Assembly: GCA_950106755.1 (NCBI GenBank) | Contig: OX467086.1 | Span: 22,028,001 to 22,092,000, forward strand | Source of the DNA: Climacium dendroides | Taxonomy: Eukaryota; Streptophyta; Bryopsida; Hypnales; Climaciaceae | DNA length: 64,000 nt | Reading direction: 5' to 3' | Part shown: piece by piece, positions 34,751 to 59,924 of the stretch | Numbering within the stretch: the stretch's first letter is position 1 | Layout: every line of letters starts with the position of its first letter | Notes under the pieces: generated by a model | Told to the model about the DNA's origin: nothing | The model's database searches: none | The model's input: the letters and a program-made list of their open reading frames with translations, nothing else | Translations under genes and position numbers: made by a program

Positions 34751-34998
34751 ACAATTATCATGTGGTTATCGTTGTTTCATGGGTTCGCACATTAATTACA
34801 ATTTATTGCATCATTTCGATGCATTACTTCGCATTGTTACAATGCAATTGTAAGTAATGCATTGTAATAATGTGATAACAATGTGAAGTAATGCATTGTA
34901 ATAATGTGATAACAATGTGAAGTAATGCATTGTAATGATGTGATAAATTGTAATTAACATGCAAACCCATGAAACAATAATAACCACTTGATAATTGT
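34751..34998. repeat. Foldback with internal 34-bp tandem repeats
   Basis: The left arm (ACAATTATCATGTGGTTATC, GTTTCATGGGTT, ATTAATTACAATTTAT) is the reverse complement, with changes, of the right arm ending near 34,998. The centre holds three units of AAGTAATGCATTGTAATAAT + GTGATAACAATGTG starting at 34,852, 34,886 and 34,920 (34-bp period). Confidence 0.8.
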
Positions 34999-35212
34999 AC
35001 AAATCAATAGCAAATTTTTGAACTAACAATGGTGACTAAAAGTTCTAATTTTTTATTGTGCAAATTGATGGTAGGTGGTGTGCATTTTTCTTTCCAAATT
35101 GACAATAAGGAAGGAGGTTCAATTTTTTCGAATATAGATCGATAATCTAAATTTTTTTGAGTCATAAAACAAGCAAGAACAGGAGTACATGCATTGTTTC
35201 ATTGCATTGTTA

Positions 35213-35244
35213 AACACAGAATTCGTAATTTTTGCACTTGGCCA
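35213..35244 (+). repeat. Left terminal inverted repeat
   Basis: Begins AACACAGAATTCG and ends GCACTTGGCCA. Matches the reverse complement of 53,337-53,368 except for one base (sixth position, A versus T). Confidence 0.8.
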
Positions 35245-37641
35245 TATAAAATTGCAATTACTAATTTTTCGAGCAAAATCAACCTCATCGCCAATAGGGG
35301 GGGGGGTTAAAGTTGCCCTTTGAGGGGGGGCATACAAAATTGAAGAGGGGAGCACTGCTTTCTCTTTACGAAATGGTTTTTATTGGAAACATCTTTCTTA
35401 ATTTATTTGTGGCCTCAAATTGTAAATATGAACTCAAATTATTCCAAAAAAGTTTATAATACTTTGTTTATAAGTTTTAAGTTAATTGGAGCCAAAATTT
35501 GTCCATAATGGTCTTTTAACAAATCAAATTGGAATGAAAAAAAGCTTTACATATAGATTTCATTATACTCCTTAAGCAATTAATTTTCTAGAAACTTAAA
35601 AGCTTTTCTATAGGGACACAGTTTTGCACATTGCATCCACAAAAGGACTTTTTCAATCATAACTTCTGTTATTGGACTGCAATTGAGAAGAAAACTATAT
35701 TTCCAAAAAGTATTCTGTCTTTTTTAATTTCACAAAAAGTTCCACAAATTTTTGAGGAATATTGCTATTGTAGGAGCCTACTCAATTCCATTTTGTCCAC
35801 CAATGAGACAATGGTAGTGTAGGGGTTACATTTATCTTCTATTGAAAATGAAATCATCTATGATTTATGAAAAAAAATGGAACTCCGGCAAATACAAGGC
35901 AATATGAAGACCTTAAAGTGCCTACAATGTATTGAAATTGTAGTATTTTCTATTGGAATTTTGGAAAAATTTCATTGTATCACAGTACTAATTATATTTT
36001 TATTTTAAATTCAAATAAATAAATAGATATAAAATTATGATTGGAAAAAACAATGAATTGAATAAATATTAAAGTGGAAATCATAAATGAATTCTAAAAC
36101 TTTTTGATACATTTATGTAAATACCTTTTTCTTTTGTACTAGCCATATTTAAAGGAATTTCATATAAATAAAGTGATATCTCTGTCTTCAATTGCCATGT
36201 TCTATGTAAATTTAGAAACATAAAGTAATAAGTAAAAAAAACTATCATATTATGTATGAAGATTTTTTATGAAAGTTTTTTTTATATATACATATATAAA
36301 GAGGCAATTGCCATTGTATTAATGATATTTGTGGTATACATCTATCTCCTTTGAAGTCCAAGAAGGTTAATGTTTTCTTCTTCTCATAGAAATTGTTGGT
36401 CGTGGCATTCATATCATTTCACCTCAATATATTTTAAACCAAAAAAAGACTATCTAACAATTTCTTTAGTGTCACTATGATTATGGTTTAAGGTTCAAGT
36501 GGTAGTTTTTTTTTTTAAAAGCAAAAGATGTACAACATCTATGTTTCTGCTAGTTGTATGAGTTTTGGATATAATAATGTGATGGTTCCAGAAGCTATAG
36601 ATGCTTTATCAAAATTCCAATAAAATATCATTTGTATGTAGTATCTACATTAATTTAAAAAAAGAAATCGAAGAAGATGAAGTACAAATACTATAGATTC
36701 TAAAAGTAGATATAGTATTTCAGAATGTGCAAGTAGTGAATACAAAGGCTTCTACCTTTTCGAAGTTCAAGATGGTGAACTTAAAATTGCATTTCTATTT
36801 TTTGTGTGCCAAGGTCCCAATGAAAGAACTAATAAATGTTTTTTGGAAATTTGAACTACAGAGGAAGAAGGACTAAGCAATAAGAGAAAACAAAGAAGTC
36901 CACTCCAATTAAGGTATTGCGATGTAGAAATTCGTGTGCAAGTATCTTTGACAAGGAATCATTACTAGCACTAAGGACCATTTGTTTTGTGTTCTATGAA
37001 ATTTGTAATGATTGCAATAACACTTGGACAATATAATTTGATGATAGGGAATTCAAAGTGATAGTAGTAGCAAACTAAATGTAAAGAATAGTCCTTTCAA
37101 GATCATATACATGAAAGTTCATTAATGAAGGTTATTTATTCCTATACTTGCAAATAATATTACTTTTGATTATAAAGGGACATCAATTCAACTAATGCAG
37201 AGAAGTTCACAAAGTACAAAACATTCTGAATACTGTGCTTCTATAAATTTATAACACTTCCATCATCAAGTTCATTTTATTCTTGCATATTGTAATTGTT
37301 TCAACTTGCAAGGGGCTTTCATGAAAGTGAATATCCATATCACATAACTAATCAATAATTATATTCAACCAGTGTACACTAACAAGTGTACAAGAAATGA
37401 AAATTATAATAGTACCTTTATGTTAGGAAGAAAGTACAATTCTTAAAATTATTTTGCAAAGTTATTTTGAAAATAAAAAATACCATTCAAAGTTTTATAA
37501 GTAGCTTAGTGAAGCAAAGTTGTAGTTTTGGGCTAATTGAATTGGATATATGAATTCTAACTTTGATTTTCACATTTTAGATATTATAATAATTGGAATG
37601 GATGTTAGAACCCTATTCAAATACTAAAGTTTTTTTATTGT
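35245..37641. other. Non-coding left arm of the TIR element
   Basis: AT-rich, no gene recognised. It includes a poly-G tract near 35,297 and a repeat family C copy at about 35,480-35,830 (CCATTTTGTCCACCAATGAGACAATGG). Confidence 0.5.
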
Positions 37642-40550
37642 ATGATGTCCAAAAATAGGACTACCATGGCCCCTAAAATTTTCAGTACATGGATTGAGTA
37701 TGGATGGTGGATTGTGGCAACGGACCCTGGAACACCAATGTTGTGGATCACAGAGCGAGCATTGCAAGATGGCTTGCATTGGGCAGCCATAGGGCATGAA
37801 CATGGGAAACTACTTTCAATTACCATAGCACCACAAGATGTGATTTTCTTGCAAGTAGCAATGGAAGAAGGGAAGACTTGCAAGTTCCAGCTGCAAAGGC
37901 AATTCATGATGGCAGCTATTCCTCAGTGTTGCTTGGATGTTGATAAACCTATGCGGGTTCTACGTAAACTTCAAGAGAATTGGACCTCTATGCCTGAGGA
38001 GCTTCGAAATGCATGCAGTGAAGCAGTGGAAAGGTTCCAAAAATTAAATCCAGAGGATGTTGTACGAGCTCGAAGACTTTTGCAAGAAATGTTGGCATAT
38101 GAAGAGTTGAAAAGATCAGCTCCACAAAATGTTCTTGACAAAACTTCTCCACCAGTTCCGGAAGAAACTGATCCTATATATAGGGTTCTAGCAAATCCAG
38201 TGAATGTTCATTGGGTGCCTCTTCAAGAGCGTCGCAAGAAACGTATAACACCAGAATCGATGGAAGATATTACATCCTCCAATCCAACAGCACAACAAAG
38301 AAATGTCAGAAGAATTCAAGGTATGGAATCACGAGAAACACGTGCTGCACAATCAACACCAGCAATGGGTACATCTGTTGAACTACCTCTACAAAATTCA
38401 TCAACATCTACACAAGGTGGTTCATCGATAAGAGAGAGGGGTACATTGTTGATGAAGAAAAGTGGAGTGGAGTCATCAGGAGCAGCTACAACACGTCTAC
38501 GTACACTCCAAACAGTTGGAGCACAAAGAGTATTGTTACCACGTGGAAGAGGAAGGACAATTGTGCAACGTGTTCATTCTGAAGCAGCACCTTTGGGAAG
38601 AACGAGAAGGACACGTACAAATGCAGATGATACTACAAGTAATGTGGAACGTCTAGAAGAGTTAGGAGTTTTCGAAGAGGTCTTTGATGATGAAGAGGAT
38701 ACAGTGGTACAACACAAGTCAGCAAGTGTTGGTCCACTTGTTAAATTTCCAACACATGATGAATATTTGGCTGGATACATTTGGGGAATGGACCTTGTTT
38801 TTTCTACAAAGGTTGCAAACATACGGGATGTCAAGAATGTGGAGACAAATCACCGTGCATTGACAGCACGTCGCGTTGCAGAAACATACAAGCGACTTTG
38901 TGGAAAAGATGAGCCACATATGTCAGCACTCACTTTACGCCCAATAGCTTATATCCAAATTGGTGTAGATGTTGATGGTGCTCTAATGCAAAGGGAAATT
39001 CCGTTTTCTCATGAAAGTGCAGTGGAAAACTTTCAAGCAGCATTTTTGCATAATGCTTCAGCAGTTCCTGATGATCCGAACATGACAAAGATGAATTGGT
39101 TGCAAAATAATATCATTTGGGAACCTGTAGATGGTCAACATGTGGTTGCGGCATGTAAACAAGCTGAGCAGAAATATAAGGCGGGTTTGATGGAAGAAGA
39201 AGAGTACCAGAAGAAGTTTGCAGAGAGGAAGGCTCGATTCCTTGTCTACAATGATCCTAAAGTTTATATAGAGGCTTCAGTACGAATAAATGCACGGGAA
39301 TTTGAAAGAACATTTTATACCAACATGGAAGAAGATTTGATGAAGCTACGAGCTATTTGGATAGCATGCGGTAAACCCAATCCTGAGGTTCGTGCAGATG
39401 ATGCACAACGTGCCAAGGCTGTGACAATGGCAGCAAGTGCATTACATTAGACGAGGTCTTCTGGACAAAGTGTATCATTGGGGGTGATGTACAAAAGGAT
39501 GGCTGAGTATACTCGTCATGCATGGCAAGAAGATGAAGTGGCCTATTAAGCAGTTCTTCAAGTTTGTCGTGATTATGAAGATGGGATCTTATGGTATAGT
39601 AAAGATGATTTGCAGAAGTGGAAAAGATATGCCAACCAGAATTCCTTGGATCCAAACATTGACATCCGACAAAGGAGGAAGAGGATGGAACGGCTTTGGT
39701 TGAGACCTCTAATGAGGGTTCCGAAGACAATGTATTTGCGGTTAGCTAAGGAAATGGCTGCAAAACCTATGGTTGGTGATCGACATCCAAGACAAAGATT
39801 TTTTTTCAACAATGCAAGCAGTAATGCTCCAATGAAAGATACTTTGGCTTGAACAACAGATCGCATTCAACAGAAAGAAGCTGTACGAAATGTGATACGC
39901 TGGTTGATGGTTGATGCAAAGGTGGAAAATCCAAGAAGCATGCAAGATTTTTTTCGCATTGATGTGCAAAAATTTGAGGGCGTGAACCGTACTCAATTGA
40001 AGGTACTTGCTGAAGTAGTTGATAAGAAAATGAAGAAAGCTTGGTCATCTCCAACGGTGAAGACAGTGGAGGCTTTAGGTAGGTCAGCGAATTTAATACC
40101 TCCAATGGTCAAAGATCATTATGCCAGCATTCAACGAGGAGAATCTGGTTATCAAGGCATAAGTAGGAATATGAGAAACCTAGAAGAAGTCGAATGGGAT
40201 TGGCAACTGAATGTACCATGTACCACACATGGAGATGCAATTACAAGTGTTCTTGTTCGCTGTGGAAGAGGTTTTTTCTCACAAGGGGTCGTCGAATTGA
40301 GGACCCCTTGCTTGTGGATATTTGACTGTAGACGATGTGGAACAGGAGGAGATGATGAAGCATGGACAGAAGACGAGTACAGTGCAGTAATGGAAAAGTT
40401 GCACCAATGGATGGCAGGTACACACTAGTGGAATGCAGTGTTTCTATTTCAAGCAGGAGTACATTTGGACATGGACTTGAAAGAGAAGATGGGACTACCT
40501 ACAAATTGTACTGTCCGTAGAGGTGTGTGGGTTTTTCAACAACAAACCGT

Positions 40551-42646
40551 TGTCGTGTTGAGAGCGGTTTGCCTTGGGAAATCACGAAGATTCTGGCTGC
40601 AACTAGAAATGGCTAAGGAATATAAATATGATAGGAGAATAAAGGCAAGTGGACTTGTCACTTGCAAACCCAGTCTTCTAACTAGAATGATGAAGGTGAG
40701 TGAACTTGTCACCCACAAATTCACCAGTCAAATACAAAATGATATTGTACAACAACAAAATTTGTTGTCTCCCGTGAATCTCTAATCTTGGTCTTCAAAT
40801 CTCGTATACGGTCGTCGAATCATCAATCTTCAATCTTCAAACTCCTCCCCGTTGGCCTATCCTGTGGTGGCTCTATAAGGGTAAGGGTAAGGGTAAGGTG
40901 ATAAGATCCCACGGCCTCGGACGGGTAAAACGGGACAGCCAACACGAGTGACCGTCCGGATGATGGGACCCTAAACTTTCAAACCCACGGTGACCAGGAA
41001 GCGCCTTTCACCAATGGGAACAACATAAAAGAGCAACTAAGTGGGTGATTAAATCCCAAATAGTCTCCACAAACACAAAATGGAGCACTTACTGGATAAC
41101 CACGGCTCGCAACAGTTTCACAATGCTGAAATTGAAAATTGCAACTAGCCTCCAAAACCGGCTGGGAATAACCATAGAAAGACAACGAGCCCCCAAATCC
41201 GGCTAGGAATAACAAGCCACAAGCCACAACACACGAGTCTTCAATCTTTGTGTCTTCAAATTTCAACTTCAAATCATCACTCAAAGCTCCACCTCAACTT
41301 CAACTTCAAATTTTCACTCAAACTCCAACTTCAAATCTCTACCCCAACTCCATCTTCAAAGCTAAACTTTGAATGATCACCACCGTTGCTTCACAACTTC
41401 AAATGGGTTGCATGATAACTCTTTGGAAAGCTAACACAATTCTCTCCATTTCCTCCAAATCTCAACTCATTCCAATACTCTAACCCAAAACTATGGTCAT
41501 CCAAAGTTTCGGCCTCTACAAGTGAGGGCAACAGACCCTCCTTCACTCCTACACTCACAACTTACTCATAAATGCTCCAATTACTTTGAATGATAGCTTC
41601 TTAGAAAGCTAACAAAACTTTACACATCCTCTCCAAAACTCAAATCAAATTAACACTCTGTCCACCTTTCATGGCCACTCAAAGTTTCGGCCTCTAGAAA
41701 TGATAGGCAACAGACACTCCTTCACTTCTACACTCGTAACTCATTCATACAAGCTCCAAATAGAATGAGTGAGATCTTACTAGAAAGCTAACTTAATTTC
41801 CTACACTTCCTCCAAATATCAATGCAAACCAAGAACCTGTCCGTCTTTTATGGTCGGTCGAAGTCTCTGCCTCTTAATTTCGAAGGCAACAAACCTCCCT
41901 CCACTCAAACTAGCACAACTTTTGATTCACAACTCCAAATCAAGCAAGTGAGATCAATTTAGAAAGAAGACACCATGATACATAACTCCACCAATTTTCA
42001 TTTCAAAATTTCAAAAACACACAACACAATGGCCCTCCAAACATTCGGGTCTTTCCCTAAACTCACAATGGGAGAGAAGATGAATCCTATCCAACTTTTC
42101 CTCTACCTTATCTACTCTCAACCACACAAACAAGTGGGGTCCGCCTCTAACTCACTCTTAAAACTCCTCTAACAATAATTGAGCACTTATTTGGCCCACT
42201 ACTATCTCCTTATCTTTATCTTTGAAGGAAATTTACTTCAAGTTCACCTAGAAGGCAAACCATTTGAATATTTCCTTACAACTACTTCACAAACACAAAA
42301 TTATTATAGAAATTCACTCCAAATATGGAATGAAGAACTAAAACTCAACGTACACCTATTAGAGGTAAAAAACTAGAATTCCAATTTCATCTTGGGACTC
42401 AGAAAAAACCCTCCAATTCGACATACTGAATCTATAACAAATAATGAAGAAAACTACTTCAAGTTTGATGGAATTCTAAGATGGCAACCTATTCTTATAT
42501 AGATGACTCAAGCCATCGTAAGAAGGCGTCACCTTGAAGCCACTAAAGATGATGTCATTATTCTCCTCATATTCGTGAAAACCAAATCAATAGAAATAAA
42601 ACATTACCACACTTTTTTACACTATGTACGCATTTACAGTGCGACA
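40551..42646 (-). repeat. 3' LTR of the gypsy element
   Basis: Same length as the other LTR and aligned to it at an offset of 8,430. I see two differences: C at about 41,246 versus T, and G at about 42,242 versus A. A run GGGTAAGGGTAAGGGTAAGG lies near 40,879 and could form a G-quadruplex. ORFs inside are duplicated in both LTRs and are not genes. Confidence 0.95.
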
Positions 42647-42657
42647 TTCACCCCCTG
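42647..42657 (-). promoter_or_regulatory. Polypurine tract
   Basis: On the minus strand AGGGGGTGAA directly precedes the 3' LTR. It overlaps the last codons and TGA stop of pol. Confidence 0.75.
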
Positions 42658-45600
42658 TAAACCTGCACATCCTCCGGTATGTGCCAAGTAGGCTCTTCTT
42701 GGTCATCTTCTGTGCTTTCATCTCTGTTTTCTTCTATCTCTTGGGTTTGTGCTGAAGGTAAAATATCATCCAAATCTTCATTGTAAATCTCTCCATCTCT
42801 CCGCCGAAATACTTTGACACGCTTGCCAGCAATAGGAATTCTCAGAGGAGTTCCATCTAACTCTCGCAGTGAGTATGTGGCATTATCATGAACTGTGACT
42901 ACCACATATGGTCCAAACCAACGTCGAGCAAATTTCCTCACAGTACTGTGTTGATGCTCTAATGTGCTATCAAACACAAGTACCCAATCTCCTTCTTTGA
43001 TTTTCTCAGTCCTCAATCGATGAGTTCTGTCAAATCTCTCCTTGTTGTTTAGTCTAGCAACTTTCAACTTCTCCAAAGCTATTTGATGATCTTCAGGCAA
43101 CCTTTGAAGTTGTTGAATACGAAGTTCAAGTAGTCTCTCTATGCTGATACCATCTTCCCATGATAGAAATATCCATGAAGGAATAGACTCCTCTCCAGGC
43201 AACATAGGCTTATGACCATGCATGAGCTCTATAGGCATATATCCAGTGACAGTACTATGTGTGGTTCTGTCAGTCCATAGAGCAAATGGAAGTAGTTTAG
43301 GCCAAATATTAGGCCTTCCTCTACAAGCTTTAACCAACGCTTGAATGATAGGAGGATGTCCTCTTTCAATTTTACCATTGGCCTCAGGATTATAAGCTGT
43401 AGTTAACTTCAATCGTACACCATATCTGTTGAAAAACTCCCTTGCTTCAGTTGCATTCAATTCACCTCTGTCTGCTCTCATCGCACCAATACTTCCATAT
43501 CGGCTAAAAATATCTTCAAGAATAAAACGGCAGACATTCTCCGTTGTTTTGGTTCGAAGAGCCCTTCCTTCCACAAAGTTTGAAAGCTCTTCTCTTGCTA
43601 AAACAAGATACTTCATGCCCCATATGCCTGACGGCATGGCAACTAGATCAATCATCCATCGAAAATGAATGGAAGGAGGATATGTAGGATGAAGCTCATC
43701 TCTATGCCGAATTTTGGATTGTAATTGGCATACAACACATGAGGCTACAAATTCTTCAACTTCTTTGTATAATCCCTTCCACCAATAGCGTTCTTTGATC
43801 TTTGTATATGTCGCCCAAACTCCTCTATGACCAGCCCAAAGTGTATCATGAAATTCCTCAAGAACTTTAGTTTTGGTCTCGGAGTCACCAACTACTCTCA
43901 ATGGCATTTCATCAGCTCTTTTTGCCCTCTTCCACAAGAATCCTTCTCGCAAAAGGTACCCATAAGACTGATGTCTGATGTCCTTAAAAGTTTTGTCCAT
44001 CCATCCTTCTTGCCTCTTCAAAGTACTCAAATAGAGTCCAATCTCTTTCAACCTTCCTTCATATAACTCTTCTTTGAATGGCAAGATTCCATCTGTAGAA
44101 TTCTCTCCTTCTGTAGCCAAAATATAGCCACCATCAAAGAGGTCTTCACTTCCTTCATGAGCCATCATCTCTTCTTCTTGATAGTATCTGGCTCTCGATA
44201 ACATGTCCGCCATAGAATTCTCTTTCCCAGCAATGTGTATTAGTACTGGATTTAGAGACTTGATGTATGCTATCCATCGAAGCATGGCAATATCCGGTGA
44301 AGAACAATTGGCTATCATGCCAAGTAAGGGTAAGCAATCAGTTTCCAAAATAACATTGGCTCCAATTAAGTAATTTCTCTCCGCCTTTAGCGCTGTAAGC
44401 GCACCCCAAAGTTCTCTTTTCACTTGTGGATAAGCTCTTTGCCTCTCTGTGAGGATCCTTGCTCCAAAACGGATGGCAAATCTCCTCCCTTCTGCATCAT
44501 CTTGTCCAACAGCCCATCCAATGGCTATCGGACTTGTGTCAACAGTCACAATGACCGGTCTTCCACTCTCATAATCAACTTGTTTTAGAACCGGTGGTGA
44601 CTTCAAAACTTTCTTCAACTCTTCCATTACCAAATCTTGCTCAGCTTTCCATACAAACTTATTCTTTTTTCTCAACAGTTTGTAAAGAGGCTCTGATATG
44701 TGAGCAAAATGAGGTATCCAAATTTGGTAGAAGACGCAAGCTCCAAGAAACCTCCTTACTTCGGTAATATTGCTGCATGCTTTCATTTTTCCAATAGCAT
44801 CAACCTTTTCGGGATTTGGTTTCCGTCCATACCATCCACACAAATGCCCAACCACTAAAATTTCATCAACCCCGAATTTTGACTTCTCTATAGAAAGAGT
44901 CAAATCAACCTCTTCAAGTCTCCCCAAGATTTTGTCTACATCATTGATATGATTACTGACAAATGTTCTGCAACCATTATCTTGAAGAGTCAAGTCTCTG
45001 ACAATCTCCTCACAACCTTTAATTGGGATATCATCCACAAAAGGTATAGTCTTCTCAGGTACAAAATCTCGTAAGATTTGATTCATGGCATTTTGCATAT
45101 GTGCCACAGAGTTTGTAGCACCTTGAGGCAATGTACACATTCTAACCAATCCAAGTGGAGTCTTCATGGTTGTCAAATCTCTGCTCTCAGCAGCTAATTG
45201 AAATTGATCATAACCAGAATATAGATCTCCAATGGAGTAAATGGCATGTCCCGCAAATGCTTCTGCCACTTCATCAACAATAGGCCCAGAACCTTTGTTC
45301 CTAATTGTCACCTTATTTGCTGGTTGCATATCTTGAATGAACCTCAATGCTCCGGATTTCTTTGGCACTGTGAACCAACGATTGGAATATGGAGCCATTG
45401 AAGGTTCAAGGATACCCATGCGCATCTTCTCTTTAAGAAGTTCAACCAGTTTGGGAAGCAATGCCCGTGGTACTGGTATTGGTTTCAAATCCCATGGCAC
45501 ATGTGGCACGGTAAAAATAACCATTGGCGCAATTACACTTGGATGCACACAACCAATCTCATCTGGTGAAGAAGCAAAGGCTTTTCCGTGTTTGGAGAGC

Positions 45601-46235
45601 ATTTCTTGGAACCTCTTTCTCTCTGGTTCAGTCAAGAAGTCATCTCTTCCTATCTTCAGATTTGCCAATGTTTCCTCTGTAAATTTGTGTCCAATTTTTC
45701 TTGATTCTCTAAGACCCGGCTCCTTCTCTGCTTGTCTGATATGTTTGTCCGTATCAGAAGGTAGTTGAGTTGCTACTGGCTTAACCTTCTTGGCCACCGT
45801 TTTGTATTTGGTATTCACCATGGCTTCATGTTTCAACCCGTAACTCTGAAACCTATCAATCCTTGATATTATCTTCAATATCTCATCATGTAGTGATCGT
45901 GTGTGAATTTCAACCACAACATCACTATCATCAATTTCTACCTCCTCGATGTATAAAGCTCGCAAAACTTGTAATAAGTCATCTGCAAAGCCTTCCTCTT
46001 CAAATATCCCAGATATGTACTCATCATCCAAAATCACCTCCATCTTTTTTAATCTTTTCTCCATCTTTTTTGTAACCCTTTTACATATAGGGTTTAGGTC
46101 CTTCACATCCGTGAAGCTCACAGAACCACACTCCTTCATACTCAGAAATCCACTCCCAACACTATGTACATTGGGGAATTCAAAAGACTTTGATCCTTTT
46201 GCACTCGCAGATCCCCATTCTCCACGTGTGCACAT
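42648..46235 (-). CDS. pol polyprotein: reverse transcriptase, RNase H, integrase
   Basis: About 1,195 residues from the ATG at 46,235. An N-terminal charged region precedes the RT (PYSNRWFTVPKKSGALRFIQ, GDLYSGYDQFQLA, LPQGATNSVAHMQNAMNQ, and the catalytic box FVDD in place of YVDD). RNase H follows (TVDTSPIAIGWAVGQD, RELWGALTALKAERNYLIG, ETDCLPLLGMI, NSMADMLSRARY). Integrase comes last, with an H-H-C-C zinc-binding head (HDTLWAGHRGVW, CVVCQ), a DDE core (MIDLVAMP, RADRGE, NGKIERG) and a GPYVV-type module near the end. No chromodomain was recognised. The RNase H wording recalls fungal gypsy elements more than plant chromoviruses (from memory). The TGA stop lies one base from the 3' LTR. Confidence 0.95.
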   Translation of the reverse strand: MCTRGEWGSASAKGSKSFEFPNVHSVGSGFLSMKECGSVSFTDVKDLNPICKRVTKKMEKRLKKMEVILDDEYISGIFEEEGFADDLLQVLRALYIEEVEIDDSDVVVEIHTRSLHDEILKIISRIDRFQSYGLKHEAMVNTKYKTVAKKVKPVATQLPSDTDKHIRQAEKEPGLRESRKIGHKFTEETLANLKIGRDDFLTEPERKRFQEMLSKHGKAFASSPDEIGCVHPSVIAPMVIFTVPHVPWDLKPIPVPRALLPKLVELLKEKMRMGILEPSMAPYSNRWFTVPKKSGALRFIQDMQPANKVTIRNKGSGPIVDEVAEAFAGHAIYSIGDLYSGYDQFQLAAESRDLTTMKTPLGLVRMCTLPQGATNSVAHMQNAMNQILRDFVPEKTIPFVDDIPIKGCEEIVRDLTLQDNGCRTFVSNHINDVDKILGRLEEVDLTLSIEKSKFGVDEILVVGHLCGWYGRKPNPEKVDAIGKMKACSNITEVRRFLGACVFYQIWIPHFAHISEPLYKLLRKKNKFVWKAEQDLVMEELKKVLKSPPVLKQVDYESGRPVIVTVDTSPIAIGWAVGQDDAEGRRFAIRFGARILTERQRAYPQVKRELWGALTALKAERNYLIGANVILETDCLPLLGMIANCSSPDIAMLRWIAYIKSLNPVLIHIAGKENSMADMLSRARYYQEEEMMAHEGSEDLFDGGYILATEGENSTDGILPFKEELYEGRLKEIGLYLSTLKRQEGWMDKTFKDIRHQSYGYLLREGFLWKRAKRADEMPLRVVGDSETKTKVLEEFHDTLWAGHRGVWATYTKIKERYWWKGLYKEVEEFVASCVVCQLQSKIRHRDELHPTYPPSIHFRWMIDLVAMPSGIWGMKYLVLAREELSNFVEGRALRTKTTENVCRFILEDIFSRYGSIGAMRADRGELNATEAREFFNRYGVRLKLTTAYNPEANGKIERGHPPIIQALVKACRGRPNIWPKLLPFALWTDRTTHSTVTGYMPIELMHGHKPMLPGEESIPSWIFLSWEDGISIERLLELRIQQLQRLPEDHQIALEKLKVARLNNKERFDRTHRLRTEKIKEGDWVLVFDSTLEHQHSTVRKFARRWFGPYVVVTVHDNATYSLRELDGTPLRIPIAGKRVKVFRRRDGEIYNEDLDDILPSAQTQEIEENRDESTEDDQEEPTWHIPEDVQVYRG

Positions 46236-48928
46236 CAAAAATCCGTAAAGTCTAGAGAAGTTGGTAGAGGTCCTTCTCTAAGTTGAGCTCGATGCCTTTC
46301 ATTGTTAGGCCTTACAGTAAGAAACTGTACTGATCTCTTTCCATCACCACTTCGAATTCGAGCATAATGGGAGCCATCATCCAACACCTTTGTCTCCATT
46401 CTTGATGCTGTAATGTATGGCTGACCTAAAATTATGGGATAAGCTCCATAATTTTGTACAAAGAAGTTTTGTTCTACTTCCACATCTCCAATTCTTGTTG
46501 GCACAGCTGGGCATGCTCCATACAACTCTCCTCTTCCATTGTTGGCAGCTCTCATCACCCAACCGTGATTAACATCAATTGGCCATTTGCCCATCTCGTA
46601 AATCTTTCGAGACATGATGTTAATCTCTGAACCATGATCCACAAGAGCTAGAATGTAATCATCCAACTCTCCTAGCTTCACACGAGTTTCTGTAGTGGCT
46701 CTAGCCCAAAATGGATGAATGTAATCCAATCTCCTTTCGAGCTCTCCTTCCGCCATATGAATGATTGCACATTCATAAGATTTTGCCTCCATTTGAATCT
46801 CTTCTTTGTTTTCAGTCCTAGAGATTGCCTCATCCATCATTCTCCTCTCTTCTTCCAAAGTCTTCGAAGAACAAACTTCTTCCTCTAAGCTTTTCACCCC
46901 CACTGATCCTTTTCTTGTCACATCTTCACATTTCAAAAGATGATCAGCCTCAAACCCATTGTTTCTCTTGTCAATTGCACACATTTCAGTAAACATGTGC
47001 AAAATCTCTTCTTCTTCATCATCAGATAGATCACATAGACATGCATTTACTTCTACAATGCTCTTGTCTTTGTCTATCTCAACTATTTTAGTTGCAACCT
47101 TCTCCATTGTAGTTGGAGGATCACATATCAAGGCAAAAGCCACCCCAATCTCAGTCTCCTCATCTTTGGTGATGCGAGTGTCTAAAGCTTCCACCATGAT
47201 TGTTTCAGCTGTCATTTGTCTTTTTCTCTTGATGACATCAACAATCAGCTCATGAAAGTCTTTCTTGGCAATGCCAAGAGCCTCTCTCAATGTAAATTCA
47301 ATTTTGGCATCCAAGATTCTCTCCTCCAATATGCCTTTCATGTCTATAGAAGACTCAATGTCTGATTGAAGTTTATAGGCCGGCGGTTTGCCCTTGCCTT
47401 TGCTTGAATCTTCTTTGCCCTTTCCTTTTTTGCTATTGCTTGGATCTTCCCACTTCTCCTTAGGAAGCGGTTCATCTCCTGGATGAACAAAAATAGGTGA
47501 CTTCGCAGACCTTTGTCGTGTATGAGCAGCAGGACCATCTCCCTTTTCACCTTCTTTGATCCCTTGTGGTTTTCTTTTGAGTGCTGGCTCCTCCACATCA
47601 TCATCTTCAACAGTCCGCCCTCGTTTTTCTTCAACAAGAACATCATGGTCTTTATTATGGCCTTGTACTTCACCCAAAAACACTCTGATGCTACTTGCAT
47701 CAACAGGATCTTCCCAACCAGTCACCTTGCGAATGGCTTGAGCTCCTCTACGTAATACTTCAACAGATGGAGCTTGGGAAGTCTCAACTACATGTTGAAC
47801 AACCTCTACATGGAATGATGTAGCACCCTTTCCACCTAAAGAATTGGATCTTCCCATTTTGTCTTCTACGATCTTTTTCATCCCTCCTTTGCCAAAGTTG
47901 GTATTCAAAGGCAAATTTGTAGATGCATCATGTATTTTTCCATCTTTGAAGACAACTGTGCCATCTTTAAGAGCCTCATCGTATTGTTTACAACCTCGAA
48001 GGCTGTGGCTCTCCTCCTCATCACACCAAATACATCTCCTTGTAAATGTTCTTGTATTGTCAGATGATTGAGTACCTCGTGACTTCTTCAACTCGCTCAT
48101 CTCCACCCTCAAATCTTGAATACCCTTGATAAGCTCATCAAGAGTATCTCCTTCAACCGTCTTGGCAGTCTTTGAAGTTGATGGTGCAGGTGTAGGGGCA
48201 AATGATTTCTTAGGAGCCCTTGTAGTAGGTGCAGGCTCTTCTCCCACTTGTGGAGCTTTGCTTCTCGATCTCAATTTCTGTTGTTTCGTGAGTAGGATAA
48301 TTGCTTGTTCAATTGTCCTCCAATCATTGGTAAAACCTCCTTCAGTAGCTCGATCTCCAAGAAGCAAAAGAAGTTTGTCTCCTAAAGCATCATCAGTTGC
48401 TTGTAGAAACAACTCTGTCTTCCTACTATCAAGAAGACGTCTCTCTGCCAAAGGTAGCTGCTTGTACTTCTTCTCAAAATCTCGAAACAGCTCATTTGGG
48501 CCCATATTGTTCCCTGGACACTGCTCAATCCAGTCAAGAAATGCTCTCTTGGTCATACGGTCCGCATCTTCATCAAAATACTCATCCCGCAATCTCTCCT
48601 CAAACAACAACCATGGGATTGCGTTTGCATCACCTCGAATCTCTTCTACCCTTGGCCGGATCTCAGGTACAACAGCTAGACTGAAGGTTTGAATCATCTG
48701 GTTTTGAGAAACCTGATGTACCTCCATCTCACAAACATAGGCTCTCAAGAACTTCGTGATGTCCTTTCCGTCAAATCTTCCCATCTTGTCAACAACACCT
48801 TTTAGAGCTTTCGTAGCACTTTGACCGCCAGAATGAGATCTATGCTGTTCCATCAATATCGCCAAGGCACCAAGTATGGTGTCCATATTGGCTGGGGTTC
48901 TCTCAGAACCCCCACTAGTATCTTCCAT
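46235..48928 (-). CDS. gag-protease polyprotein of the gypsy element
   Basis: An 897-residue ORF starting 52 bases after the 5' LTR. The N-terminal half is a helical capsid-like region (KMGRFDGKDITKFLRAY, FLDWIEQC, FRDFEKKYKQLP). A cysteine-histidine cluster CIWCDEEESHSLRGC lies near residue 300 with spacing C-x2-C-x5-H-x4-C, one residue longer than the usual zinc knuckle. Long charged linkers follow. The C-terminal 135 residues form a retropepsin-like domain with ALVDHGSEINIMS (D764) and YPIILGQPYI. The active-site triplet is DHG rather than the usual DSG/DTG. So protease is in ORF1, not at the start of pol. The stop TGA overlaps the pol ATG (TGATG). Confidence 0.92.
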   Translation of the reverse strand: MEDTSGGSERTPANMDTILGALAILMEQHRSHSGGQSATKALKGVVDKMGRFDGKDITKFLRAYVCEMEVHQVSQNQMIQTFSLAVVPEIRPRVEEIRGDANAIPWLLFEERLRDEYFDEDADRMTKRAFLDWIEQCPGNNMGPNELFRDFEKKYKQLPLAERRLLDSRKTELFLQATDDALGDKLLLLLGDRATEGGFTNDWRTIEQAIILLTKQQKLRSRSKAPQVGEEPAPTTRAPKKSFAPTPAPSTSKTAKTVEGDTLDELIKGIQDLRVEMSELKKSRGTQSSDNTRTFTRRCIWCDEEESHSLRGCKQYDEALKDGTVVFKDGKIHDASTNLPLNTNFGKGGMKKIVEDKMGRSNSLGGKGATSFHVEVVQHVVETSQAPSVEVLRRGAQAIRKVTGWEDPVDASSIRVFLGEVQGHNKDHDVLVEEKRGRTVEDDDVEEPALKRKPQGIKEGEKGDGPAAHTRQRSAKSPIFVHPGDEPLPKEKWEDPSNSKKGKGKEDSSKGKGKPPAYKLQSDIESSIDMKGILEERILDAKIEFTLREALGIAKKDFHELIVDVIKRKRQMTAETIMVEALDTRITKDEETEIGVAFALICDPPTTMEKVATKIVEIDKDKSIVEVNACLCDLSDDEEEEILHMFTEMCAIDKRNNGFEADHLLKCEDVTRKGSVGVKSLEEEVCSSKTLEEERRMMDEAISRTENKEEIQMEAKSYECAIIHMAEGELERRLDYIHPFWARATTETRVKLGELDDYILALVDHGSEINIMSRKIYEMGKWPIDVNHGWVMRAANNGRGELYGACPAVPTRIGDVEVEQNFFVQNYGAYPIILGQPYITASRMETKVLDDGSHYARIRSGDGKRSVQFLTVRPNNERHRAQLREGPLPTSLDFTDF

Positions 48929-48960
48929 CTTCCTAAACTCAAACTAGTTGCCCCAAAGCT

Positions 48961-48978
48961 CTCTCAGTGGAAGCACCA
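48961..48978 (-). promoter_or_regulatory. Putative primer-binding site
   Basis: Two bases after the 5' LTR the minus strand reads TGGTGCTTCCACTGAGAG. It starts with TGG, the complement of a tRNA CCA end, as expected of a PBS. It is not the common initiator-Met type (TGGTATCAGAGC); I do not assign the tRNA. Confidence 0.7.
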
Positions 48979-48980
48979 AA

Positions 48981-51076
48981 TGTCGTGTTGAGAGCGGTTT
49001 GCCTTGGGAAATCACGAAGATTCTGGCTGCAACTAGAAATGGCTAAGGAATATAAATATGATAGGAGAATAAAGGCAAGTGGACTTGTCACTTGCAAACC
49101 CAGTCTTCTAACTAGAATGATGAAGGTGAGTGAACTTGTCACCCACAAATTCACCAGTCAAATACAAAATGATATTGTACAACAACAAAATTTGTTGTCT
49201 CCCGTGAATCTCTAATCTTGGTCTTCAAATCTCGTATACGGTCGTCGAATCATCAATCTTCAATCTTCAAACTCCTCCCCGTTGGCCTATCCTGTGGTGG
49301 CTCTATAAGGGTAAGGGTAAGGGTAAGGTGATAAGATCCCACGGCCTCGGACGGGTAAAACGGGACAGCCAACACGAGTGACCGTCCGGATGATGGGACC
49401 CTAAACTTTCAAACCCACGGTGACCAGGAAGCGCCTTTCACCAATGGGAACAACATAAAAGAGCAACTAAGTGGGTGATTAAATCCCAAATAGTCTCCAC
49501 AAACACAAAATGGAGCACTTACTGGATAACCACGGCTCGCAACAGTTTCACAATGCTGAAATTGAAAATTGCAACTAGCCTCCAAAACCGGCTGGGAATA
49601 ACCATAGAAAGACAACGAGCCCCCAAATCCGGCTAGGAATAACAAGCCACAAGCCACAACACACGAGTCTTCAATTTTTGTGTCTTCAAATTTCAACTTC
49701 AAATCATCACTCAAAGCTCCACCTCAACTTCAACTTCAAATTTTCACTCAAACTCCAACTTCAAATCTCTACCCCAACTCCATCTTCAAAGCTAAACTTT
49801 GAATGATCACCACCGTTGCTTCACAACTTCAAATGGGTTGCATGATAACTCTTTGGAAAGCTAACACAATTCTCTCCATTTCCTCCAAATCTCAACTCAT
49901 TCCAATACTCTAACCCAAAACTATGGTCATCCAAAGTTTCGGCCTCTACAAGTGAGGGCAACAGACCCTCCTTCACTCCTACACTCACAACTTACTCATA
50001 AATGCTCCAATTACTTTGAATGATAGCTTCTTAGAAAGCTAACAAAACTTTACACATCCTCTCCAAAACTCAAATCAAATTAACACTCTGTCCACCTTTC
50101 ATGGCCACTCAAAGTTTCGGCCTCTAGAAATGATAGGCAACAGACACTCCTTCACTTCTACACTCGTAACTCATTCATACAAGCTCCAAATAGAATGAGT
50201 GAGATCTTACTAGAAAGCTAACTTAATTTCCTACACTTCCTCCAAATATCAATGCAAACCAAGAACCTGTCCGTCTTTTATGGTCGGTCGAAGTCTCTGC
50301 CTCTTAATTTCGAAGGCAACAAACCTCCCTCCACTCAAACTAGCACAACTTTTGATTCACAACTCCAAATCAAGCAAGTGAGATCAATTTAGAAAGAAGA
50401 CACCATGATACATAACTCCACCAATTTTCATTTCAAAATTTCAAAAACACACAACACAATGGCCCTCCAAACATTCGGGTCTTTCCCTAAACTCACAATG
50501 GGAGAGAAGATGAATCCTATCCAACTTTTCCTCTACCTTATCTACTCTCAACCACACAAACAAGTGGGGTCCGCCTCTAACTCACTCTTAAAACTCCTCT
50601 AACAATAATTGAGCACTTATTTGGCCCACTACTATCTCCTTATCTTTATCTTTGAAGGAAATTTACTTCAAATTCACCTAGAAGGCAAACCATTTGAATA
50701 TTTCCTTACAACTACTTCACAAACACAAAATTATTATAGAAATTCACTCCAAATATGGAATGAAGAACTAAAACTCAACGTACACCTATTAGAGGTAAAA
50801 AACTAGAATTCCAATTTCATCTTGGGACTCAGAAAAAACCCTCCAATTCGACATACTGAATCTATAACAAATAATGAAGAAAACTACTTCAAGTTTGATG
50901 GAATTCTAAGATGGCAACCTATTCTTATATAGATGACTCAAGCCATCGTAAGAAGGCGTCACCTTGAAGCCACTAAAGATGATGTCATTATTCTCCTCAT
51001 ATTCGTGAAAACCAAATCAATAGAAATAAAACATTACCACACTTTTTTACACTATGTACGCATTTACAGTGCGACA
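48981..51076 (-). repeat. 5' LTR of the gypsy element
   Basis: Promoter-bearing LTR for the minus-strand transcript. Its inner end abuts the primer-binding site and its outer end abuts the CCGT target copy. The terminal inverted pentanucleotide TGTCG/CGACA is intact. Confidence 0.95.
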
Positions 51077-52857
51077 CCGTATCATCATATGTTGATGATT
51101 TGCAACACAATGGAGAAAGGGAGCGCACTGTACAAGCAATAGGGGATATTGCTATTGTAATGGTACATCCCCTTGCATCAAGGGTGGTAGAAAACCTACG
51201 AAATAATCCTCAACAAGTACTAGTGGTGTTTACGGATTCATAGAATGAAGCTAGTATGCCTTGTGAGGTAGACAATCTGGAGAGAAACCCCCTTGAGTTG
51301 CAGAGGTTGGTTGCTATATATTTACCAGAGAAATGGGGGTTAATAGGAATGGGCATTACGACAGCTATATCAAGTATATTGAAGACTTCATTTGTGGGCA
51401 GTGAAGTGATTGTCATGGATGGATCCATAGATCAAACTCGTTTTTTGAACAATACATTGCAAGAAGGAAATCCTACAGGAAATCAAGCAGGGGCAACTAC
51501 AGTGGTAGTAACTGGAAATGCAGAAGCAATACGGCCGCAAAATATTGGTGCTCCTCATATAGGATCTTCTTCTGTTCCTGTGGTACATACGAGGACAGAA
51601 GAAGATGATATCATGGAAGAGATATTTGGAGATGAAAAAGAGGACATAGAAGATGGCGAAGATTTGTATTCAGAAGATACACCAGTGAGAGAAGGACACG
51701 AAGAAGATGAAGAAGAAGATGAATCAAAATACGATGAAGAGGAAGAAGAAACGGAAGATGAGAGTGAAGATGATACATCGAACTCAGAAGAAGATACATC
51801 GGATTCAGAAGAGGACTCTGCAGAGCAAAAGGATGATTCAATAGAAGAAGAAAGTGATTCATCGAAGCAGAAGGTGCTACGTGAAAAGAAAGGGAAGGGC
51901 ACTCGCAAAAAAGAAGTACATGAACCTCCAAAGAAATTGAAAAACAAAAAATCAGCACATGATGTATCAATGGTAGATGCATCTACAGATCTTGAAGCAT
52001 CCATAGGACAGGCGAGTGTTCCAAAAAATAATACGACAAACAAAGATACAGACGACGTACTTGAAGAACATTCTATTCAAAATAATGAAGCAAGCAAAGA
52101 TAATCTTGAGGCCATGCAAGAGGAACAAGGTAAATTTCTAGTGCAAGATGAAGCTATTTCTTCTATGGAGGAGGTAGTGACGGAAATGGAGGTGAACATA
52201 CCAGTCGAAAGAGGTACAACCGACAAAGGAATAGAAGAAGTGGAACGTGAACTTCGTGTGGATGCAAGAACCGTTCCTTCTGGAGAAGTGTCTCCTTCAA
52301 CAGAGGAGGTAGTGATGGAAACAGAAGAAAATATTTCTTTGGCAAGAGCAATAATTCACGCGAGGGCAGAAGTAGATGCAAATATAGTTGACAGTGTTCT
52401 TGAGCCAAGTAGAGGAGATTTGCCTTCAACAATTTCAGAAGACATGACTACAATAACAGTGGGAGGTGAAACACAGTTAGATAGGATGTGTTATGCATGG
52501 GCTATGGTTGAAGAAGAAATGACAAGAGGAGCAGATGGAATGTACTACAATCGGGAAGGTATTCGACATCGTCGAAGGGGCATTGAAGGGGCATACGAAT
52601 ATGAACAAGTCACTTCAATATTGGAGGAGACGTCATCCATGAACCCAATACCTTTTCCAGAAGGTGAAGGTCAAGTTAATAGGTCCTTGAATGATGCAGA
52701 ATTTGAAATTCCACCTGAAATTTCTGCAATACTAACTGCAAGACCTAGGGAGACTGAAGCAGATGTTCTATGGGGTCCTGTAGGTTATGAAGAAGAAGCA
52801 GAGGTAGAGACTCAATCATCAGGGGTAATTGCAGAGACGTCAGACGCAATGGATTAG

Positions 52858-53336
52858 TATGTTGCCATTTTGCGTACAAGTATTTATAGTAGTGCATCCT
52901 ATTCTATATAGTTTTTATTAGTAGGAATAGTTATTATACTTAGTAATTATGGTATTTTGTGTGTTTATTTTGAGCTTTTCTTTTCAAGTGTAGCAATGAA
53001 TTGATAATAAATTGATGGTGTGCTATTTTTTAAAGTATATAAAAGTGTTTCATAATACCATGGGATTGATTTTTAAAGCAAGACCAACGTTTGACTCAAA
53101 ATCCCAATTCAAAAATGTTGCGTACATGTGATTCTTTGTTTAAATATACAAATTTGTTCATATTTCAAATGCATAGTTCATTACTTCAAGCACAATAGCA
53201 TGCTATGTGCAAAAGAAATGATCCAATTATAATGTACAATTTTTTCTTAAAAAGGCTTGACCCACATCTAGAATTGGTATACCACATTTATGAAGATTGG
53301 AAAAATGTGTCTTTTTTAGTGTTTGATTAATGCACT
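52858..53336. other. Non-coding right arm of the TIR element
   Basis: AT-rich, no gene. It ends in an 18-bp perfect palindrome TGCACTTGGCCAAGTGCA (53,331-53,348) that overlaps the inner end of the right TIR. Confidence 0.55.
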
Positions 53337-53368
53337 TGGCCAAGTGCAAAAATTACGAATTCAGTGTT
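53337..53368 (-). repeat. Right terminal inverted repeat
   Basis: Reverse complement of the left TIR with one mismatch; followed by GTTA, the same four bases that precede the left TIR. Confidence 0.8.
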
Positions 53369-53519
53369 GTTAGCTTTAGAATGAATGTAACTAGTGACAA
53401 GCAATTGGGGGGTGAATTGGTCATACCAAGTTTTAGGTGATTGCTTGAGGCCATATAAGAATTTTAAACTCTAAATACTTTATCTTTCTCCCCTTCTTTA
53501 CTAGAAACAAATAGTTGTC

Positions 53520-58473: not shown

Positions 58474-59924
58474 ATGGGCGCGTGGTTTAGTTGCTGCACT
58501 CCCGCCCAACTCCGTCCTCGGATTGATTGGGTTATAGGTTTGGATTTCGGGACCACGTATTCGGGATTCGCGTACGCGAGAGCTGTTACTGACGAGCCAG
58601 CAATTCATGTCTATTACTCCTGGCCGCAATTAGAAACCGAGAGACCGTATTCCAAGACCTTAACCGCCCTCTTCTACAAACGCGAAACTCCTGCGCACGC
58701 CGAGCTCGAGGTCGCGTCGTGGGGTTACTGCGCTCGTACGGCTTATTTCAATCAGAACAAGAAGAGCCAGGATCCCCGCGGACTGTACTTGACGACCTTC
58801 AAGGTGCTGTTGATGCAAGATCTGAGCGATGTGTTACCACCCCCGCTCACCATCGAATCTCTCATCATCGACTACTTGAAATGCATCGGCGAGCAAGCGT
58901 TGTCCGTCATTCGGAACCACGAGGGTGAGGTGAATTTCAATCGGGATGCAGTGCAATGGTGCGTGACGGTGCCATCCATCTGGGATGCCAAGGCCAAGCA
59001 GAGGATGAAGAATTGCATGATGAAGGCGGGGCTCGTCTCGCAGGAAGCCGGTGGCGTCGACGCCGTGAAGGTCAGTACTGATGTCTACCTAATTTTCTTT
59101 ACTGCTTCAAAAAATTTGGCAAATTTTAGCGTCCTTTTGAGCTCCTCAAGCTAGTTCTGAGAATCACATTTGTGGCATTGGTGAAGATTGCGCTGGAGCC
59201 CGAGGCTGCTTCGTTCTATTGCCACCAGATTTTGCAAAAGGAGCAGAAGCAGTTATCTCTCCAACTCTCAGATAAGCTCCTGGTGTTGGATGTTGGGGGA
59301 GGCACGGTGGACATCGTGGTCCAAGAGTTTGTAGGGACCAGTCAGATTTACAAGGTGAAGGAGATTACGCAAAGCTCAGGAGGGTTTTGTGGCGGAACAT
59401 TTGTGGACCAATCTTTCATGCGATTCTTGTCCCAAAAGATCGGATGCTTGGAGGCTTTCCTTTTGGATTTCCCATCGTTCAAGACGCGTCTGCTCAAGGA
59501 CTGGGAAGAGGTCAAGTGTGGGTTCGGCCACGAGATGATGGACACCGACGCCGTGAGTATTCCGCTGCACTACAAGCTAGCTCCGAAATGGGAGGCGTAC
59601 GAGAAGGAACGTGGAAATTGTCTGCTGGATTCCTCTGAGGTGGAGCTGACGAAACAGGACTTGCAGTCGATTTTTGATCCCATGGTGGAGGAGATTCTGG
59701 AGCTCGTTGCTGCGCAGTTGGAGCAAGTGCCGGATGTCAAGGTGATGTTCGTGGTGGGCGGATTTGCAAGCTCGCCGTATCTCATGCAAAGGATCCGAGC
59801 TCGCTTCGCAGAAGAGATCGCCCATATTGTCAGCCCCCCGGATCCTGGGAGCGCTGTGGTTCATGGCGCCGTCTCTTTGGCACTTCACCCTGAAGCCATT
59901 GTCTCCAATTTCAGAGAGGATTAA
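58474..59924 (+). CDS. HSPA12-like Hsp70-family ATPase, C-terminally short
   Basis: Two exons, 58474-59070 and 59187-59924, joined in phase 0 (...VDAVK | IALEPEAAS...), 444 residues. The actin-like Hsp70 ATPase motifs are all present: phosphate 1 IGLDFGTT (21-28), LEPEAAS (202-208), phosphate 2 LVLDVGGGTVDI (231-242) and adenosine VVGGFASSP (388-396), then DPGSAVVHGAVSLAL. The wording fits the HSPA12A/B branch, not canonical Hsp70s. HSPA12 proteins usually continue for well over 100 residues beyond this point; here the frame stops 15 residues later (PEAIVSNFRED) exactly at an unusual inverted-repeat structure. The N-terminus MGAWFSCC fits N-myristoylation at Gly2 with palmitoylatable Cys7-Cys8, suggesting membrane attachment (inference). 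Confidence 0.9.

Follow-up and report, generated by a model that had tools for sequence, protein, structure and literature searches.

The window analysed here is a 64,000-bp stretch of the Climacium dendroides genome (contig OX467086.1, positions 22,028,001 to 22,092,000) that carries, at 35213–53368, an element bounded by 32-bp terminal inverted repeats (TIRs) and flanked on both sides by GTTA, as the initial annotation had read it. The two TIRs are complementary at 31 of 32 positions (97%), with a single mismatch, and a search for a 26-bp part of the repeat, allowing up to three mismatches, finds two sites in the window, which are the TIRs themselves (shuffle mean 0.00, n = 100). Between them lies a long coding frame, hereafter gene B, which is split by a nested retrotransposon and stays in phase across it (37609–40550 to 51079–52857), with a possible first methionine at 37666. 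The features of the element are the following, with strand given where there is one.

35209–35212: target duplication GTTA, left copy, read at the flank
35213–35244, plus strand: left TIR, from inverted-repeat comparison, its core found genome-wide
35374–35381: internal-deletion junction, an overlap of about 8 bp between alignments to other copies
37609–40550, plus strand: gene B, first part (putative ParB-like part and start of the predicted methyltransferase-fold domain), four in-frame stops
39118–39141, plus strand: WEPVDGQH motif of gene B, with E, P, D, G, Q and H invariant in an 18-row alignment
40312–40335, plus strand: LWIFDCRR in gene B, the probable place of methyltransferase catalytic motif IV as judged by topology
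51079–52857, plus strand: gene B, second part (end of the predicted methyltransferase-fold domain and acidic tail), one in-frame stop ahead of the final stop
near 51334–51366, plus strand: place of methyltransferase motif I, within the second part of gene B
53332–53347: perfect 16-bp palindrome GCACTTGGCCAAGTGC, straddling the inner edge of the right TIR
53337–53368, minus strand: right TIR, from inverted-repeat comparison
53369–53372: target duplication GTTA, right copy, read at the flank

A 21-bp core of the TIR, searched with at most one mismatch, has 76 matches in the genome of 412.6 Mb (34 forward and 42 reverse, against 0 and 0 for the backward-read control). The repeat is thus not unique to the window; uniqueness is what the initial annotation had named as speaking against its reading. 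Twenty-one forward/reverse pairs were examined, comprising the window, ten pairs with whole or short elements and ten further pairs, and together they account for 42 of the 76 matches. The paired ends lie 16–26 kb apart in 19 cases and 2.2 and 12.1 kb apart in the other two, copies without large inserts are 16–17 kb long, and most of the ends printed begin with AACAC. The 4-bp flanks are identical in 10 pairs, agree at three of four bases in 6 and agree less well in 5, the pairs with imperfect flanks including copies with damaged TIR ends (L017, L021); L030/L031 is not a single element, since it joins two ends of the same type with inverted flanks. In a sister subfamily with ends AACACGCAATTCG the 4-bp flanks are identical in 3 of 5 cases, the left end being damaged in one of the other two, and in a third family, with ends AACACCGAATTAG, one copy shows a CCTT duplication. 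The suggestion, made from the window, that this is a DNA transposon generating target duplications of 4 bp is hence supported at the scale of the genome. A 2.2-kb short derivative (L027, C1:12862848–12865022) retains both TIRs and only the end of each of the two genes described below, and is flanked by CAAG and GAAG.

Nine long copies were examined, and in all of them the same TIRs bound the frame of gene B; ends unrelated to these TIRs would, in the terms of the initial annotation, have spoken against its reading. Read from the left end in the orientation of the window, these copies consist of gene A (about 1,055 codons, present in all nine and reading toward the left TIR), a central region of about 7 kb, and gene B, which has about 1,585 codons and runs toward the right TIR. 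The central region has no long coding frames, although frames of 200–400 codons are present; two central-region frames that were tested gave no Pfam match, and in copy L009 the region is made up partly of simple repeats and a G+C-rich stretch. The window copy is an internal-deletion derivative of this arrangement. Positions 35213–35381 align to the left end of other copies, so that the left 169 bp are kept, and from 35374 onward the alignment resumes about 8.65 kb further inward in L009 (8.3–9.3 kb in L011, L017 and L023), at 91–98% identity to other copies beyond the junction; gene A and much of the central region, more than 8 kb in all, have been removed, and a second, smaller loss lies at 37512–37520. 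With gene A deleted, the window copy is unable to move by itself, and the 7.6 kb at which the element had been sized after removal of the retrotransposon falls well short of its long relatives. The window copy is also decayed, gene B being both split by the retrotransposon and broken: codon alignment to another copy spans 1,585 codons and meets six stops, of which one lies upstream of 37609, and the frame of about 1,560 codons first reported is accordingly real in extent, though not intact. Compared with three other copies, the window copy has 79 private changes, 54 of which are C-to-T or G-to-A, the pattern expected of an element that has probably been methylated and silenced.

The protein of gene A (about 1,055 amino acids) matches DUF7869 alone in Pfam, and the predicted structure of a homolog adopts an integrase-type RNase-H fold. 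Aspartates D505, D508, D587, D627 and D629 are conserved at a level of at least 90%, and the residues of the catalytic triad are probably among them. Judged by this predicted fold, gene A is the DDD transposase of the element, and the large frame of gene B is not. Within the family of the window, the ratio of nonsynonymous to synonymous substitution rates (dN/dS) of gene A is 0.37 in frame versus 0.62 and 0.71 in the shifted frames, which supports coding constraint. A search of the genome for DUF7869 yielded 150 scored matches from 1,820 first-look candidates, with none of 14 control genomes matched. A second group of these matches covers only about positions 31–192 or fewer, and several DUF7869 lineages thus seem to coexist. 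Members of DUF7869 occur in several animals and a protist, and the family is named in no paper of the literature searched; it here gains a likely identity as a DDD transposase.

For gene B, the predicted structure of a homolog shows strong matches to the beta-class fold of N6-adenine/N4-cytosine (N6A/N4C) DNA methyltransferases, in a C-terminal domain that follows the putative ParB-like part. Methyltransferases of this kind carry a catalytic motif [DNS]PP[YFW] and a motif I with the signature GxG. The former occurs in none of the 15 gene B rows that cover the position, all 15 reading [DE]CR instead, and GxG occurs in none of the 12 covering rows in the stretch printed; gene B copies with open frames likewise read DCRR. 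Gene B therefore seems, from these alignments, to have lost the methyltransferase active site and to have conserved a replacement motif. The N-terminal part may be ParB-like. Its EPxDGQH sequence resembles the DGxHR motif of ParB and sulfiredoxin, and a phage protein named ParB/Sulfiredoxin aligns to both halves of gene B over 763 columns, with a low TM-score. The VIA-align list for gene B contains no ParB structure, but it was filled by the methyltransferase domain, and this absence is no evidence against ParB. Sequence searches of Pfam, NCBIfam and PDB with gene B returned nothing usable, and a profile of its alignment run against PDB sequences gave chance-level matches only. Weak matches to DUF3106, CDC45, C3_CUB2 and a terephthalate-binding family were dismissed as low-complexity or short. 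When homologs were sought with words from the first 500 residues, none of 7,994 candidates qualified, whereas residues 400–1000 of another copy recovered 17 homologs from the same database, which the first search had therefore missed.

The association of the two genes extends well beyond the window. Gene B loci were located through the homolog P0123, with 44 scored of 342 candidates (37 further rows of the table are second stretches of the same 44 loci), and all 44 were compared with the top 92 DUF7869 rows out of 150, the 58 lower rows having been left out as partial, mostly covering positions 31–192 or less. A DUF7869 match lies on the opposite strand, head-to-head, at 4.5–28 kb from gene B in 42 of the 44 loci. 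The exceptions are the window copy and C38:27691538 (L025), where the transposase gene is present but broken. Pairs in which both frames are open from stop to stop combine a gene B of 1,611 codons with a gene A of 1,059 or 1,061 codons, or one of 1,455 with one of 1,068. Two gene B copies on different contigs are practically identical across the 1,528 codons compared (proportion of nonsynonymous differences, pN, 0.001), which suggests recent movement. The pairing persists across subfamilies whose proteins are about 54–60% identical, and between two subfamilies that are 54% identical in gene B, the ratio of nonsynonymous to synonymous differences (pN/pS; one pair, uncorrected) is 0.44 in frame, compared with 0.93 and 1.15 in the shifted frames.

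Taken together, the evidence favors, with a probability of roughly 0.7, the interpretation of the window element as a non-autonomous, decayed copy of a giant 16–17-kb, two-gene, cut-and-paste DNA transposon that would move by a Sola-like mechanism, with gene B as a DNA-binding partner. In this model, the DDD transposase encoded by gene A (DUF7869) would cleave the element at its AACAC... TIRs and integrate it with a 4-bp stagger, and transposition through a DDD enzyme with such a stagger is very likely. The product of gene B would join a ParB-like part to a beta-class amino-methyltransferase fold in which another sequence has taken the place of the catalytic motif; rather than methylating DNA, it would most likely bind the palindromic ends of the element, thereby helping to pair them or shielding the element from host silencing. 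The assignment of gene B as a non-catalytic DNA-binding partner is our best guess, and stands at about even odds. We propose more tentatively, as an idea that could well prove wrong, that giant Sola-like transposons of this plant depend on a two-protein system. Its ParB-like clamp, joined to a methyltransferase fold without its catalytic motif, would bind the palindromic ends of the element, and either transposition or escape from silencing would need it. Since the window copy has good ends and a 4-bp duplication, it is possible that it was mobilized in trans before it decayed; alternatively, it may have lost gene A after insertion.

Several observations weigh against this interpretation. Identical 4-bp flanks are missing from 11 of the 21 TIR pairs, some of which may be chance pairs or rearranged copies, and the other copy of the third family has a 5-bp ATAAG on both sides. 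Both predicted structures are those of homologs (P0002, P0124) and not of the window proteins, and a Foldseek search of PDB with the gene A structure gave only one match with E ≤ 0.001. The ParB assignment is based on resemblance to a motif, on topology and on low-scoring BFVD matches, for which TM-scores are at most 0.31 and the root-mean-square deviation is near 28, and neither Pfam nor PHROGs contains a ParB or methyltransferase profile that matches gene B or its homologs. Lastly, gene B shows no visible constraint within the family of the window, where dN/dS is 0.61 in frame against 0.44 and 0.63 shifted, and the copies there may hence be evolving as dead sequence.

This last observation is what would be expected if gene B were a passenger, useless to the transposon and carried by chance, and extra genes are often carried by giant transposons, according to the available part of a study of brown algal elements (PMC12477816). 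Such a view is nonetheless hard to reconcile with the pairing of 42 of 44 gene B loci with DUF7869, in the same order and orientation across divergent subfamilies, or with the constraint on gene B between two of them, and we consider it improbable. It is also unlikely, although somewhat easier to entertain, that gene B is an active, unusual methyltransferase in which [DE]CR stands in for [DNS]PP[YFW] and which marks the DNA of its own element. The absence of both diagnostic motifs, as generally defined, from every covering row argues against activity, as does DCRR in copies with open frames; on the other hand, the fold matches of the homolog are strong, and a conserved replacement can mean function. 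Furthermore, a protein of like architecture in Ectocarpus is predicted to make N4-methylcytosine or N6-methyladenine, as far as the accessible text of that report goes (PMC12477816).

Two further readings concern the element as a whole. A length above 15 kb and the presence of TIRs would suit an integrated virus or a virus-like element of the Polinton type, but the element has only two long genes, the capsid, DNA polymerase and retroviral-type integrase families were not found in the element frames tested, and two pattern scans across 2.9 million viral contigs turned up nothing related to either protein. Maverick / Polinton elements make 6-bp duplications and carry viral polymerase, integrase and capsid genes; membership in this group was ruled out on the 4-bp duplications and on two long genes neither of which falls in Polinton families by Pfam, and a viral origin is highly improbable. 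It is scarcely credible that the boundaries have been mis-read by 2 bp and belong to a CACTA (En/Spm) element, with CACTG/CACAG termini and a duplication of 3 bp, even if the ends read (AA)CACWG and the subterminal motif is palindromic. CACTA / EnSpm elements have a 3-bp duplication, CACTA ends and a CACTA-type transposase, whereas here most printed ends begin with AACAC and have identical 4-bp flanks directly outside in 10 of 21 pairs, the ends of sister elements are AACACG and AACACC, and gene A is a DUF7869 protein; membership in CACTA / EnSpm was rejected on these grounds.

Why giant DNA transposons keep large second genes is an open question. Gene B is tied to the transposase across subfamilies and has near-identical open copies, which makes its role directly testable. 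If the proposed two-protein system holds, a eukaryotic transposon would have put a bacterial DNA-marking module to structural use in DNA recognition, and a degenerate methyltransferase serving in binding would be the transposon counterpart of the inactive methyltransferase partners of cells. If gene B serves to counter silencing, it would be relevant to how plant transposons cope with DNA methylation. The finding thus hints at an unstudied way for large transposons to work or survive.

The insert within gene B is a nested retrotransposon, as first described, here assigned to the Gypsy type from the domain order reverse transcriptase (RT), RNase H, integrase. Its long terminal repeats (LTRs), of 2,096 bp each, are mismatched at two sites, which indicates a young insertion, and its features are the following.

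40547–40550: 4-bp duplication CCGT at the left edge of the nested element
40551–51076, minus strand: the nested LTR retrotransposon as a whole (Gypsy-type), which interrupts gene B
40551–42646, minus strand: LTR (3' in its own orientation), from LTR comparison
42648–46277, minus strand: RT / RNase H / integrase frame (RVT_1, RT_RNaseH, Integrase_H2C2; rve slightly below the cut-off)
46235–48943, minus strand: first frame of the nested element with DUF4100 (Pfam), gag-like by position
48981–51076, minus strand: LTR (5' in its own orientation), from LTR comparison
51077–51080: 4-bp duplication CCGT at the right edge of the nested element

The flanks of the transposon at 53327–53470 (minus strand) and 35063–35212 resemble one interrupted gene of what we take to be a Copia reverse transcriptase (YGLKQSPKTWYDQF...), and the element was therefore probably inserted into a retrotransposon. 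Adjoining its left side, at 34751–34998, is an 89-bp inverted repeat (88% complementary) that overlaps three 34-bp tandem units. Elsewhere in the window, a plus-strand frame at 1365–3113 encodes a carboxyl-transferase domain (E 2.3e-123), resembling that of a land plant acetyl-CoA carboxylase, poly(ADP-ribose) glycohydrolase exons (PARG_cat_C, PARG_cat_N) lie at 8474–10440 on the minus strand, and an HSP70-like fragment (E 3.4e-6) lies at 59130–59924 on the plus strand.

The fold of gene B places it beside both bacterial and eukaryotic enzymes. ParB-methyltransferase fusions of bacteria and phages, and beta-class methyltransferases such as M.BceJIV and CcrM, have the same fold as that predicted for the C-terminal domain of gene B, but gene B differs from them in lacking [DNS]PP[YFW] and the GxG of motif I. 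Eukaryotic members of the fold include the rotifer N4C methyltransferase (8s9o) and proteins of the METTL14/MTA9 type, METTL14 and MTA9 being inactive partners. These are host genes, whereas gene B travels with a transposase.

For the element itself, the combination of a DDD transposase with a 4-bp duplication points to Sola, a superfamily reportedly defined in a 2009 paper. Sola elements encode a DDD transposase, generate 4-bp duplications, have TIRs of 11–1,124 bp, occur in the moss Physcomitrella, and are mostly 2–9 kb long, with some exceeding 15 kb (PMC10741241). The element described here is similar in its 4-bp duplication, in a DDD transposase with a predicted RNase-H integrase fold and in a size above 15 kb; a ParB-methyltransferase gene goes unmentioned for Sola in general in the available portion of that source. 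We place more confidence in the statement that the element works like Sola than in the statement that it is Sola, the likeness being one of description rather than of sequence comparison. The closest published element, again by description and as far as the accessible part of its report extends, is Sola1-1_Ec32 of the brown alga Ectocarpus, a giant Sola-1 of 21.5 kb in which the transposase is accompanied, on the opposite strand, by a 1,104-amino-acid protein that combines ParB-like and DNA-methyltransferase parts, the corresponding table giving one Sola-1 family with 1,989 copies, of which 2 are intact (PMC12477816). The two share the same plan, with giant size and a transposase opposite a gene for a protein with a methyltransferase fold, here with a putative ParB-like part (42 of 44 loci here). 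The initial proposal of an undescribed type was only partly right, since the transposase and duplications fit Sola and a ParB-methyltransferase partner gene had already been reported from a Sola-1 element (PMC12477816). The two elements differ in that the host of Sola1-1_Ec32 is a brown alga and that the catalytic motif is gone from the element described here. No such element is reported from a land plant among the literature matches listed, and what is new here is the conserved loss of the catalytic motif, the maintenance of both genes together across subfamilies, and the land-plant host.

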